Shown piece after piece: positions 9,737 to 53,970 of a stretch of 64,000 nt of DNA (the first letter of the stretch is position 1; each line of letters starts with the position of its first letter). The notes beneath the pieces were generated by a model. That model saw only the letters and a list, made by a program, of their open reading frames with translations, did not search any database and was not told where the DNA came from. The position numbers and the translations under genes were made by a program. Origin of the DNA: Dysidea avara (taxonomy: Eukaryota; Porifera; Demospongiae; Dictyoceratida; Dysideidae); the NCBI RefSeq assembly GCF_963678975.1, contig NC_089277.1:18758001-18822000 (forward strand). Reading direction: 5' to 3'.

Positions 9737-24683
<14,947 letters not shown>

Positions 24684-26069: not shown

Positions 26070-26073
26070 AATA

Positions 26074-26284
26074 CCGTATAGCCTAAATATTTCGAGGGGG
26101 AAATTTTTACTGATTTCGCAGTTTTGGGGGTTAGCTATCAGTGAATATTTTAGCCTTGAAATATTTAGACTCCATATATAGTCTAATACATTTTTGGAGT
26201 GTTTGCAAATCCGTGAAAATTTTATTTTTAGCAACATTGCTCAACCTCAAACTGTTTGCCCCTCAAAATGTTTAGGCTATACGG
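26074..26284. mobile_element. pogo/Tc1-like MITE with TA duplication
   Basis: ccgtatagcctaaatattt at the left is mirrored by aatgtttaggctatacgg at the right, with TA on both sides. Length is 211 bp. A truncated relative lies at about 52969-53130. The termini resemble those of the larger pogo-like element at 36925-39548. Confidence 0.8.
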
Positions 26285-37279: not shown

Positions 37280-38290
37280 ATATGAAACTCGATGATGAAG
37301 AGAGAGCTACTGTTGGTGAATACGCTGCAAAACATGGAATTGCAGCTGCCATTTGACATTTTGAAGCAAATAACTTTTCCCAAATTTAAAGGAAGCCAGT
37401 GAAAAAAAGCCTATATGCATGCTGTATTAAACCAGTCAACTGAAAGAAAGCGAGGTGGCAAACCAGTGGAAGTTACAAAGCTTCCTCAGAAAAGGGTGGA
37501 AGACCACTTTTACTAGGAGAGGAACTGGAGGAAGAGGTCAAATTGTTCATAAAAGCTTCACGTGCAGAGGGGACGGTTGTGAATACTGAAACCGTCATGG
37601 GCACAGCTACAGGTGTTGTAATCAACCATAATGTCAACTTGCTTGCTGAAAATGGGGGATATATTAATATAACCAAAGAATGGGCACAGCGATTGCTTCA
37701 ACGAATGGGTTTAGTAAAGCGGAAAGGGACAACAAAACTCCCTCTGATTTTGAAAAACTGAAACAGCAGTTTTTGTCCGACATCCGCACAATAGTTGCAA
37801 TGAAAAGCATTCCAAAGGAGCTAATAATCAACTGGGACCAAACAGGTATGAAATATATACCAGTGTCCAATTGGACCTTTGAAGAGAAGGGGGCTAAACG
37901 GGTAGAAATTGCTGGGCTGGATGATAAACAGCAAATTACAGTACTATTGTCATGTACGATGGATGGAAAGCTGCTGCCCACACAAGTGATCTATGCTGGC
38001 AAGACTCCTGCTTGCTTACCTAAAGTCCAGCATCCACAGAATTGGTATTTGACCTATTCTGAAAATCACTGGTCAAATGAACACACCATGATGGGCTATC
38101 TACATAACATATCTCGTGCTAATCTGAATCTGCATGAGCAGCTCCCATCAATGCCTTGTCATATTTGACTCATTCAAAGGTCAAACTACAGATGCCTTTT
38201 TGGATACCCTGGATGAGAACAATATCCTAGTAGTAGAAGTTCCCCCTGACCGGCTGCAACCATTAGAATTTATTTTTTTAAGCAAACATA
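37280..38290 (+). pseudogene. pogo-like DDE transposase, frameshifted
   Basis: Successive frames give EYAAKHGIAAA, GGRPLLLGEELEEEVKLFIK, WAQRLLQRMGLVKRKG, then IINWDQTGMKYIPVS (first catalytic Asp) and LVIFDSFKGQTTDAF (second Asp). At least two frame changes and stops in the N-terminal part break it. The final acidic residue region is lost after 38290. It would have mediated cut-and-paste at TA, and it is inactive here. Confidence 0.75.
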
Positions 38291-39403: not shown

Positions 39404-39800
39404 TACGTCGCACCACTAGCATGTGTATACATGTGTTGCAAAGAAATGTTACATGCTATGAAAATTTCATGGATTTTATTTTCATGGTTGCTCTGTTAAC
39501 TGCGAAATCCGTGAAAATTATGTACCGTGAAAATTTCCACGCGTACGGTATGATTTTCAAGCTGAAGTGGGTCCCCGTGACTGCTTATTCTCCTCATTGG
39601 CACCATCTACACATGCTGCAGCTGTGACATGTGACAAGGTGCGGGTACAACTTCCCAATTGCAAATCTATATGCAAGTACTGTCAAATAATTAGAATGCT
39701 TTGTACAATGTTTAATAGTTGAATTGTTTATGGTTTCAAGGGATATACTAACTTTCAGTGTTGATGACTTAGCTAGAATATATATATATATATATATATG

Positions 39801-40040
39801 TACCACTCTGCGTGGGCAGTTCAAAGGCACCGCCAATGCCATAATTTGTATATTGCACTGCTGCAGACCGCAGCAAGTGCATTATAACTTATAACGCACT
39901 GGTTGCGGTTTTTTAGACCACAACGAGTGCATTATACGTTATAATGCACCGACAGCAGTGCAATATACAGATATTGCACTGGCTGCGGTTTTGCATGTGC
40001 AGCATAGCACAAGTGCCGGTGGCGAAGACCACTGCGACAC
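39801..40040. repeat. Repeat with left-end motif and inverted gcactg words
   Basis: accactctgcgtgggcag, then ttcaaaggcaccgcc, matches the left end of the element nested at 21917. Multiple gcactg/cagtgc and tgcggttt words at 39880-39990 form overlapping hairpins around ataacttataacgcac and cattatacgttataatgc. Confidence 0.6.
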
Positions 40041-49585: not shown

Positions 49586-49873
49586 TGTATGAAGGTAAGT
49601 TTTTGGTGAGTTCTAGGCGAGCTAGGGCCGTATGGAACGCCGTTTGTAACAAAAATACATGATACCTGACTCCAGCTACCTTATTATCGCCGATAATAAA
49701 ACACCATCCTTATTATCGCCGATAATAAGACTTATTATCGCCAATAATAAGACCTCGCCTTATTATCGCCGATGATAAGACTCCAGCTTATTATCGCCGA
49801 TAATAAGGCGGTGCTTATTTTCCTAGGAAATAATTAAGACAGCGCTTAAATTATGTTTTCGGGTGCGTATATT
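49586..49873. repeat. Left TIR of the HECT element with five palindromes
   Basis: Five units of TTATTATCGCCGATAATAA (some with one change) lie between 49679 and 49807, 20-28 bp apart, with differing spacers. They are good candidates for transposase binding sites. Confidence 0.88.
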
Positions 49874-49927
49874 TTAGCGCTTTAAAACTCTATTTATATC
49901 ACACTAAGTTAGTCATAGAAGGCTTAC

Positions 49928-50700
49928 ATGGCTGCAGGTACTTCGCGTGAATCTCAACTATGGGGATGGGAAGCATTTTTTTGACAAAATTGCAATTTTT
50001 CTTCGCGAAAGCGGTCGCCAATTTGGAAACTGCTTGGAAAATTATGCTAATTATGCCATAGAAAGGTTGGAAATCTGCATTATTACTGTTTCTCGCCTTA
50101 AGGCACATTTGGAAAATGGTGCAGTACTTGTCCAGCCCGAGTACCATGAAGTTGTGACCGGATATAAGAACAATATGGAGAGCTTGTTAACATATTTGAG
50201 ATCGTTGTCTGGAGAATGGGAGAGATACATAGCCTCAATGGAACGTGTATCAGAATCTTTGCGATACAGAGTTGCAACAAGGGAAAGTGTAGGTAGAGGA
50301 AGACCTCCATTTATTGTAGCAAAGGAACAACTTGAATATTTGCTCATTTTCATGGACCAACATAGCATTGTTGTTGGGCGTTTCCAGGATGACATTGTAT
50401 AGGAGACGTCAAGAATTTGGAATGCTGGATGAACCAGGCAGGGAACTGACTGATACAGAACTTAGAACTAGAGTGTCAGAAATTAAGAATACACTTCCTG
50501 GTGTAGGAGAAAAGTTGATTCTAGGCCGACTGAAGTCAATGGGGTATAGGGTGACTAGAGCTCGTGTTCGAGATGCACTGAGGTCTGTAGACCCCATCAA
50601 CACTGCTCTTAGGTGGCAGGGGGGATTACAACTCGAAGACCTTACTCAGTTCCTGGACCTAATTCCCTAGGCCTGTGGCATATAGGTATGCACTTATAGT
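49928..50700 (+). pseudogene. HTH / integrase-like protein of the element, frameshifted and truncated
   Basis: A start at 49928 gives MAAGTSRESQLWGWEAFF, then a run of seven T (49976-49982) breaks the frame. The next frame (to 50402) carries DKIAIFLRESGRQFGNCLEN and, later, VGRGRPPFIVAKEQLEYLL. After a second break near 50343 comes a helix-turn-helix (SWTNIALLLGVSRMTLYRRR) and RLKSMGYRVTRARVRDALRS. A third break near 50622 leads to TTRRPYSVPGPNSL and a WHI-like end. In metazoan integrase-core proteins that I recall with this arrangement, the WHIDG Asp starts the DDE core. Here the core is missing, so the protein cannot be active. Confidence 0.65.
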
Positions 50701-51643
50701 TGTCTATGTGCTATGTTGTATGTTGCAACATAAATATATTATTATATTAACTGTACAGCACAAAATTTTGAAGGATACAGAATCTCTATACTGATTTGGC
50801 AAAGTTTTTGACAGATATAAGAGAGTATAGCTGCACATATAAAAACTATCAAAGTTTTTCTTTGCACCATATACAGAAGGTGTCAGTTTGATTTGCATGA
50901 CTGTGTTTTGAATCTGCATGACACTATGTTGTGCAGTCAAACCTCTCCAATCTCATGCACAGAGACATCAATTCTGTCAAGTCACCTGTGTAATCATCGT
51001 ACAATATCTTTGGATTATGCAATAAATTAAGAACGATGATTTTTTTTTGAATTTGCAGCTATTACAGCTTTTTTCTATTACAAAAAAATGCTTGGATGCT
51101 CAATACTTATACTCTGTGATAGTTGTTAATGCAGCTATTAATCTTTGCCATATTGCAAAGGTTGAAAACAATGTATTTCCCAGTCTAGGGAATCCAATTT
51201 TTGTCAGATTACAGAGTACAAATGTGTCAGATTACAGAGGTTGTGTTCTATACAAAAGTGTTAGTAAATGTTGCTAAAGCACATCGATTCTTTAAACTGG
51301 CTGGGTATCAAGGTCATTGGCAAACTGCTTTTCCACGGGTAATATGCGAGTTAAATACCGAGCGGTGCCTTTGAACACCCACGCTAAAGTGGTATATATA
51401 TATTTGTAGCTCTTGATTGAGATAACTACTTTAGAGCAGTCATCTACTGTAATAAAACAGTCATTGTAGCTGATATGGATTTTTAATTTTCCCATGACTT
51501 GTTGGGTTGGTACTAGTTGGTGAAATAGCTGATTAGTTAGAGTAATTTGGTATGGCCTAATATGGTTTTGGTATTACAGTATGCTTTACGACATGTTGCA
51601 ACTGAGAATTGTTTACATTGCACTAATATTATGTACACACTAG

Positions 51644-52820
51644 GTTGACAACATAAATGACAGTATTATCCCAGAAGACAGAAAAATTATTGAGAGAGGT
51701 ATGTGATATGGTAGTTTACAAAAATGTTACTATAGCTTTGTATGTTGCAGCGGAAGACAAACGTTTGGAGTTTGTGAAGCAAATTTGTCCAGTGACACCT
51801 CCAATTCTGACTGCTCATGTGATACGACAAAAAGAAGTGTTTCGAGATACCTTGGAACTTTTGAGGAAAGATAAAGTGCTTGAAGAGTTTCCTCTCAAAC
51901 TTCAATTTTCAAATGAGCAGGCAATAGACTATGGTGGAGTGTGTCGTGATATGTTTTCTGCATTTTGGGAGCATGCTTATTTCCACTTTTTTGAAGGATC
52001 AAACCCGCTAACTCCATGTCTGCACGCAAATACAGATATGAGTGCACTGCCACAGTTGGGCAGAGCACTGTCACATGGTTACCTAGTATGTGGGTATTTT
52101 CCAGTGCGAGTAGCCTTTCCCTGTTTGGCTGCTGTTGTCTTGAACCTTTATATAGAAATCTCACAAAAGATACTTGTGCAAAACTTTGCTGAAAGCTTAA
52201 GCCGTTCAGAAGCTGCTACAGTAAAAGGTGCTTTGGCTTCAGCTACATTTTCCAAGGAATTGCAAGATAAATTAATTTGCATTCTGAGTCGCTATGGCTC
52301 CATGGTATGCCCTACTCCTAATGGACTGAAGATGCAGATCTGCAATGTAGCCAAATACTACTACACAGCAAAACCTATGGCAGCCATTTCTAGCATTGGC
52401 TGTGGAATCCCTTCTAATGAGAAGCAGTTTTGGGATAGTTTCACTGTTGAGGAACTATATTCTCTGCATGATTCACTTAGTGTGACTCCAGAAAAGGTTT
52501 TGGCTATACTAGATGAACCCATTGAGGAGAATTCTACCCAAGCAACTGTTTTTGGCTATTTAGAGCAGTATGTTGGGAACATGAAGAATGAAGAGGCTAG
52601 GCGTTTCTTGAGGTATACCACAGGGAGTTCAGTGTTGATTGGTCAACGTATAACTGTTAGCTTTAACAGCTTATCAGGATTCACCCGACGACCTACTGCT
52701 CATACATGTGGGTGTGAATTGGAGCTGCCTTCAACCTATCTCAGCTATCTTGAGTTTGAGAAAGAGTTCAATGTCATTTTAGCTGATGATGACTATGCTT
52801 GGGACATGAATGCTCGTTGA
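51644..52820 (+). CDS. HECT-type E3 ubiquitin ligase domain protein encoded in the element
   Basis: Best model: exon 51644-51698 and exon 51751-52820, with a 52-bp intron (GAGAGAG|GTATGTG ... TTGCAG|CG) in phase 1, giving IIPEDRKIIERAEDKRLEFV. The ATG at 51657 is in another frame relative to this exon and is probably not the start; the true 5' end is upstream and not found. The N-lobe has LQFSNEQAIDYGGVCRDMFS and SHGYLVCGYFPVRVAFP. The C-lobe ends with RPTAHTCGCELELPSTYLSY, where the Cys at 52707-52709 is the expected thioester residue of HECT ligases. The ORF is free of stops, unlike the integrase-like gene beside it. It would accept ubiquitin from an E2 and pass it to a substrate; the target is unknown. 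Confidence 0.75.
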
Positions 52821-52968
52821 CTGTCAGTACACCAGTTGTAGCCAGGACGCTGTGTATATTACTTTAATGATTTTTGCATGTGTGTTTTGTGCCATTCATA
52901 ACATGGCCTGTTAATAAACATGATGATTTTGGATAGTTGCATATGATGCATGTGTTAGGTATATTGTA

Positions 52969-53130
52969 CCGTATGTACTAAATACTTTGAGGGAAAATCA
53001 GTAGTTTTCGCGGTTTTGCATGGGGGTAGTTATCAGCGAAAATTTTATTGAAATCTTTAGATATCCATATAATCTAGCAAATACATTTTGGGAGTGTTTG
53101 CAAATCCACGAAAAAAATTTTTTTGACTAG
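52969..53130. mobile_element. Truncated pogo-type MITE inside the HECT element
   Basis: taccgtatgtactaaatact, then ggtagttatcagcgaaaat and gagtgtttgcaaatccacg, match the MITE at 26074-26284. The right end is missing. Confidence 0.65.
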
Positions 53131-53271
53131 ATCAGCTGGTGTCTGCTCGAATTACGACCTTGTTCAACTCAATACTGCTCACTGTTGATGCCATGATTCA
53201 CTGAAGCAGCCATGACTTAGCTAGCTAACATTAATATTATTAATGCTAAAAGCTAATAGATCTATATACGC

Positions 53272-53559
53272 GCCCTAGGACATAATTTAAGCGCTGTCTT
53301 AATTATATCCTATAAATAAGCGCTGTCGTATTATCGGCGATAATAAGTTAGAGTCCTTATCATCGGCGATAATAAGGCGAGGTCTTATTATCGGCAATAA
53401 TAAGTGTTATTATCGGCGATAATAAGGATGGTGTTTTATTATCGGCGATAATAAGGTAGCTGGAGTCAGGTATATTTTTGTTACAAACGGCGTTCCATAG
53501 GGCCGGGCCAACCCTAGCTCGCCTCGAACCCTGAGTCACCAAAAACTTACCTTCATACA
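53272..53559. repeat. Right TIR of the HECT element with five palindromes
   Basis: Five units of TTATTATCGGCGATAATAA lie between about 53328 and 53456, in the mirror order of the left arm, including the same variant unit with tcggcaataa. This shows that the arms descend from one sequence. Confidence 0.88.
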
Positions 53560-53572
53560 ACTAGTGTGCTTG

Positions 53573-53970
53573 CTATAGTACGTTCACGTTGAGCTGAATC
53601 CTGAAAAACAGCTAAAAATTAAAAGTGGATTTTTTCTCAACAGAGTTAACATTTCAGCCAACCAGATGATTATTGGTAACAGCAAAGGTGTCAACAACAG
53701 ACACATATGGTTTGGCTCCATTACAAGTTCGGGAAAGGGCTGTAATGGGCACTGTACTTTTATGGCTTCCCTATAGGAAATGTATTGTGAAAATTTTGAT
53801 TGGCGGTAAATATTATGTCAAACATTTAATCAAAAAGTTTTTGAAATATTTTTAGCGGGTCAAGCAGTAGAGGTCTACTACAAATAAGCCAAATTTCAAG
53901 ATCATGTGTAATTGCATCCATGAGTTATTAAATGTTTTTGAAGATTCAGCTCAACGTGAACATACTATAG
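53573..53970. mobile_element. MITE adjoining the HECT element
   Basis: ctatagtacgttcacgttga, then gctgaatc at 53573-53600, is mirrored by gattcagc and tcaacgtgaacatactatag at 53943-53970. It begins about 13 bp outside the right TIR. No coding capacity. Confidence 0.8.

Follow-up and report, generated by a model that had tools for sequence, protein, structure and literature searches.

The described systems that come closest to the element reported here are the IS3EU and GingerRoot DNA transposons, for which target duplications of 6 bp are described in the accessible part of PMC10045372; the lengths given there for Ginger1/Ginger2 are 4 or 5 bp. According to the same part of that account, complete IS3EU families always end in TA..TA, and GingerRoot elements mostly end in TA..TA and occasionally in TG..CA. 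IS3EU families of fungi that carry TET genes have also been described, in which a TET/JBP dioxygenase gene lies between the transposase and alpha-kinase genes (PMC12730594, in its accessible part). Here we describe an element of 3,974 bp, found as one copy at positions 49586-53559 of a 64-kb stretch of DNA (the whole stretch is called the window below), in which long inverted arms enclose two genes, one of them transposase-like and broken, the other an open reading frame (ORF) for a HECT E3 ligase.

Considering the arms and both genes together, we read the element as a decayed, non-autonomous DNA transposon of the cut-and-paste kind, IS3/IS481-type and IS3EU/GingerRoot-like, whose HECT gene would belong to the transposon family as an accessory gene; our confidence in this reading falls just short of even. 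A first-pass annotation of the window had proposed a DNA transposon that is bounded by terminal inverted repeats and holds a HECT gene, and the analysis supports that description, on one copy. Every family-level statement made below rests on this single copy at 49586-53559.

Inverted arms and palindrome arrays

The element is delimited by a 24-bp exact inverted pair, TGTATGAAGGTAAGTTTTTGGTGA, located at 49586-49609 (+ strand) and 53536-53559 (- strand); shuffled sequences gave a mean of 0.00 such pairs. This pair forms the outer part of two arms:

49586-49872, + strand: left terminal inverted arm, which starts TGTATGAAGG and has 19-bp palindromes at 49681, 49710, 49732, 49760 and 49788
53263-53559, - strand: right terminal inverted arm, with five palindromes at 53328, 53357, 53385, 53407 and 53436

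Local alignment of one arm with the other (about 290 bp each) gave 299 aligned columns, divided into 282 identities and 17 mismatches, plus 36 gap columns, and BLAST reports 86.8% identity over 303 columns with gaps counted. Loose similarity extends 7 bp beyond the 24-mer (CACTGTC and, inverted, CACTAGT), so the outermost base of the element is uncertain. In this single copy the outermost exact match reads TGTATG..CATACA, that is TG..CA, and a shift of 2 bp inward gives TA..TA.

The repeated unit within the arms is an odd palindrome of 19 bp, TTATTATCG(C/G)CGATAATAA, present at ten sites, five per arm; half of these sites fit exactly on one strand and the other half carry one mismatch at best. 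When up to three mismatches were allowed, 20 strand-matches were counted, whereas 100 shuffles averaged 0.03. Together with the exact 24-bp pair, this count confirms the annotated arms of about 290 bp with five palindromes each. The order of the palindromes is the same in both arms: measured from the arm end, they start at 96, 125, 147, 175 and 203 on the left and at 106, 135, 157, 185 and 214 on the right, with spacings of 29, 22, 28 and 28 versus 29, 22, 28 and 29. The fourth palindrome shows an identical deviation in the left and right arms and, because it is common to both, this deviation probably predates the insertion.

The third palindrome (49732-49750 and 53385-53403) has lost one CpG independently in each arm, by CG to CA in one and CG to TG in the other (left-arm orientation), which is the pattern that methylated CpG would give. 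Overall, CpG has been kept in the arms, at 1.6 times expectation, despite a window that is CpG-poor (observed/expected 0.44); the transposase-like part stands at 0.49 and the HECT gene at 0.31.

A broken transposase-like gene beside an open HECT frame

The first gene within the arms is distributed over three reading frames:

49953-50349, + strand: N-terminal part of the transposase-like gene; no family assigned (best NCBIfam match 0.057, a non-transposase)
50344-50616, + strand: helix-turn-helix (HTH) part of the transposase-like gene, in a different frame; IS3 model E 6.6e-5, IS481 0.034, IS21 0.15
50619-50696, + strand: third frame piece with the short tail GGITTRRPYSVPGPNSLGLWHIGMHL, closed by a stop

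The three pieces can be joined into a single protein reading whose frame shifts two times or more, once between 50325 and 50371 and once between 50599 and 50619; a third frameshift near the start of the gene is possible, and a splice donor may lie in GTATGC at 50686. The middle piece contains a Fis-type HTH, under Pfam's cut-off, and its match to the NCBIfam IS3 model covers model positions 101-176 of 369. With the pieces joined, the IS3 match has an E value of 1.2e-4 and the IS481 match one of 0.041, the latter reaching position 129 in a model of 284. Such scores, obtained from fragments, lie far under the cut-offs of both models and describe a weak but specific relation. In PHROGs a transposase family is matched at 5.7e-4. 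An HHCC zinc motif is absent by eye, the joined N-terminal pieces having two Cys only, with the N-terminus as read here.

The protein terminates in ...NSLGLWHIGMHL and a stop, with a Gly three residues after its Trp. In the integrase fold the first catalytic Asp is located three residues past such a Trp, and the DDE core would be expected to begin at about 50619-50696. Profile scans of six further ORFs of the element and one ORF of the right flank found no Pfam family at its cut-off, hence no remnant of a DDE core in those ORFs. Since no catalytic core was found after the HTH, this copy should neither make transposase nor move by itself. The gene annotated earlier as a broken HTH/integrase-like gene is broken indeed, whereas its "integrase" amounts to the N-terminal DNA-binding part. 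That annotation had also held that no superfamily could be assigned. Firm membership is still lacking; nevertheless, the scores of the HTH piece against the IS3 and IS481 transposase models of NCBIfam narrow the choice to a probable IS3/IS481 type. The element is probably IS3EU/GingerRoot-like as judged from its protein remains, a label by which we claim no membership.

The second gene lies on the same strand as the first, within the same pair of arms:

51644-51698, + strand: probable upstream HECT exon, VDNINDSIIPEDRKIIER, preceded by CACTAG; from the reading frame and splice-like borders
51699-51750, + strand: probable intron of 52 bp, GT..AG; from the reading frame and splice-like borders
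51751-52820, + strand: main HECT exon, stop codon included, with the N-lobe motif DYGGVCRDMF and the C-lobe motif PTAHTC (Cys codon 52707-52709)
52913-52918, + strand: AATAAA polyadenylation-like signal, 93 bp past the HECT stop; the element has four AATAAA in all

The HECT ORF (51657-52820) comprises 387 stop-free codons; when the bases of the interior were shuffled 500 times, the longest open frame had 191. It passes the Pfam HECT cut-off (27.8 bits versus 23.9, E 2.5e-6) by a match to the end of the C-lobe only, residues 293-369 on profile positions 210-291 of 306. Comparison by phmmer with proteins of solved structure aligned the N-lobe to RSP5 around DYGGV (whole-sequence E 1.4e-5, the stretch alone 0.0088) and the C-lobe to AREL1 at PTAHTC (E 2.4e-5, the stretch 0.00096), the middle of the protein being diverged. 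The catalytic Cys is that of PTAHTC, and an unbroken HECT ORF with its active-site Cys, as first annotated, is therefore present. Both lobe motifs and an own stop also indicate that the gene is no mere fragment.

The frame shift across 51699-51750 turns the upstream HECT reading into VDNINDSIIPEDRKIIERAEDKRLEF, and this GT..AG stretch is likely an intron of the gene. Because the 52-bp intron gives a plausible longer reading, the first ATG of the ORF is probably not the start. Profile scans found no other domain beside HECT in the protein. No NCBIfam or PHROGs family matched it at E up to 1, unsurprisingly for libraries built on prokaryotes, and a single-sequence structure model of the ORF (mean pLDDT 37.1, pLDDT being the predicted local distance difference test) was too poor to use. 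The possibility that the HECT gene forms a separate nested element was considered and rejected: one of the ten inverted pairs in the interior brackets it (14 nt, 86%), and we take this pair as chance.

Role and origin of the HECT gene

In a working relative of this element, as its anatomy suggests, the HTH of the transposase would bind the five-palindrome arrays, probably as dimers, after which cleavage at the ends and their joining to new DNA would fall to the DDE core, in keeping with the known chemistry of the family. The gene for the HECT ligase, which has its own exons and polyadenylation-like signal, would serve the transposon family as an accessory gene, and its product may act in trans, by ubiquitination, on the stability of the transposase or on host silencing proteins. 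An accessory role has a precedent in the TET-carrying fungal IS3EU families, which hold accessory enzyme genes (PMC12730594, in its accessible part). The present copy would be mobile only with transposase supplied from elsewhere. A more specific proposal, that an animal lineage of the IS3/IS481 type regularly carries its own HECT gene and uses it to mark either the transposase or a silencing factor of the host for degradation, is possible and, in our judgement, on the doubtful side.

Several observations weigh against reading the element as an IS3/IS481-type transposon with a HECT accessory gene. No clear target-site duplication is present beside either version of the ends, TG..CA or TA..TA: among flank comparisons at 2 to 8 bp the best was of 6 bp, ACTGTC/ACTAGT, with 3/6 positions identical, and the 6-bp flanks of the TA..TA ends, TGTCTG/CAACTA, are identical at 2/6 by eye. 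The true ends may lie as much as 7 bp outside the exact pair, or 2 bp inward, and the outermost exact match is TG..CA, unlike the TA..TA of complete IS3EU families in the accessible account. The DDE core, which defines the superfamily, was not found downstream of the HTH, either in the ORFs scanned with Pfam or by eye in the three forward frames. The HTH piece scores 22.3 bits against the IS3 model, whose NCBIfam cut-off is 160; such a score would be expected of a fragment, yet it is not proof. No second copy of the element occurs within the window, and the HECT gene could have been picked up just once.

This last point leads to a close rival, which we hold to be almost as probable without preferring it: the HECT gene would be a host gene, or a copy of one, captured once by a non-autonomous transposon copy and playing no part in transposition. 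Gene fragments are known cargo of GingerRoot elements, a single copy of the present element is known, and a probable intron and a polyadenylation-like signal give the HECT gene the look of a host gene. Its CpG ratio of 0.31 is also nearer to the window's 0.44 than to the arms' 1.6, a contrast that hardly discriminates because the transposase-like part is itself at 0.49. Capture is countered by the presence of both lobe motifs and an own stop, so that the gene is no mere gene fragment, by the strand and arms that it shares with the transposase-like gene, and by the accessory genes of IS3EU relatives (PMC12730594, in its accessible part). At the other extreme, the arms might not be transposon ends at all and might instead represent a palindromic array or inverted duplication that surrounds a host gene. 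The lack of a clear target-site duplication would fit this, as would an arm similarity that fades past the 24-mer (CACTGTC/CACTAGT) with no sharp stop; the transposase-like gene in the interior, the long matched arms with their ordered palindromes and the identical deviation of the fourth palindrome in both make it very improbable.

A domesticated ligase under selection, surrounded by relics of a transposon, is an unlikely explanation, although the HECT frame is open and the transposase-like part has two to three frameshifts. At the rate of the latter (2-3 in 729 bp), the probability that the HECT gene would carry no frameshift is 0.05-0.01; at the arms' gap rate, with two thirds of gaps frame-shifting, it is 0.002-0.0006. 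The gap events in the arms number 5-6 by eye with neighbouring gaps merged (a script counts 11 openings over the whole alignment). Applied to the transposase-like part, this rate would give 6-8 indels against the 2-3 frame breaks observed there; it is thus probably too high and overstates the decay. A conditional test on the lack of HECT frameshifts gives 0.17-0.07. From the substitutions between the arms, assumed identical at insertion, about 1.1 stops would be expected in the HECT exon, and under such neutral decay none would arise with a probability of 0.33. Decay of the transposase gene may have begun before this insertion. The open frame is thus weak evidence of selection, and an argument for selection from openness alone was set aside. 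The first-pass suggestion of separate selection or later domestication is allowed by an open HECT gene beside a broken transposase gene, and draws little strength from it.

Surroundings, relatives and comparison with known systems

Two further repeats lie inside the element:

51276-51400, no strand assigned: nested dispersed repeat, 85% identical to 21910-22044 and partly to 39792-39833 (88% over 43)
52967-53114, no strand assigned: second dispersed repeat, 77% identical to 26072-26219

Another, small inverted-repeat element, at 53573-53970, begins 14 bp past the right end of the HECT element; it starts CTATAGTACGTTCACGTTGAGC, has 46-bp arms that are 87% complementary, and the TA at both borders suggests a mariner-type miniature inverted-repeat transposable element. 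Elsewhere in the window, Pfam families are matched (E up to 0.01) by six of the nine ORFs scanned, including NACHT, LRR, DDE_Tnp_1_7, a PARP regulatory domain and an NNMT-type methyltransferase. By this content the window looks eukaryotic and probably animal, perhaps from a sponge. A long open transposase ORF of 627 aa at 12095-13975 (DDE_Tnp_1_7, E 1.2e-94) is of piggyBac type; its ends were absent among the best 25 of 90 inverted repeats, a list crowded by CA/GT runs. A DDE_1-type transposase piece lies at 37668-38168 (E 0.005, under Pfam's cut-off). The NACHT ORF at 16571-18010, followed by the LRR ORF at 23927-24538, perhaps represents parts of one or more NLR-like genes, and a 39-bp inverted repeat at 15436-15516 (82% complementary, 3-nt spacer) adjoins long GT/CA runs.

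Searches of collected contigs and sequences gave no relative of the element. In viral contigs, four pattern stretches for the HECT protein and 31 for the HTH protein were obtained with none confirmed, the 24-bp end and each of three degenerate protein-motif patterns had no hit, and the palindrome occurred in two contigs at one site each, which we take as chance. Genome contigs gave 22 stretches for HECT and 145 for the HTH, none confirmed, and tblastn at E up to 1 found no match of the transposase-like protein in plasmids or of the HECT protein in phages. Since these collections consist of viral, bacterial and archaeal DNA, the misses say little on animals. No HECT-carrying transposon turned up in searches of the open-access literature, with Repbase and subscription papers outside the search; PMC4255032, taken up as a lead, concerns retroviral integrases, and HECT is absent from its main text.

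Among described transposons, the element resembles IS3EU and GingerRoot in its N-terminal HTH of IS3/IS481 character (a weak match) and in showing no HHCC motif, and it may resemble GingerRoot also in the TG..CA ends that occur there occasionally, should the outermost exact match here mark the true ends. IS481EU likewise has an IS481-like transposase, and Banshee, thought to belong to it, is reported to start with 5'-TGT; on the other hand, IS481EU is described from parabasalids and the window looks animal, and the word "ubiquitin" is absent from the main text of that account (PMC10045372).

With HECT E3 ligases such as AREL1 and the RSP5/NEDD4 family, the protein predicted here shares the DYGG motif of the N-lobe and the PTAHTC motif with the catalytic Cys of the C-lobe, whereas it showed no other domain in the scans, is diverged in the middle and is encoded inside transposon arms. 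Short HECT genes are numerous in animal genomes, and many short HECT proteins of fish and invertebrates named "G2/M phase-specific E3 ligase-like" may, we assume, be of this kind. Should members of the family regularly carry the ligase, the host protein-degradation system would serve transposons as a tool, and these many short genes might belong to transposons and not to the host; if it was captured a single time, it is an ordinary passenger.

The TET/JBP-carrying fungal transposons offer the parallel of a transposon with a host-type regulatory enzyme, which is thought to aid escape from silencing (PMC12730594, in its accessible part). The enzyme there is a DNA demethylase and here a ubiquitin ligase, and the hosts are fungi and probably an animal, respectively. 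If the reading is true, a HECT gene within a transposon would be the protein-level counterpart to the demethylase genes of the fungal elements.

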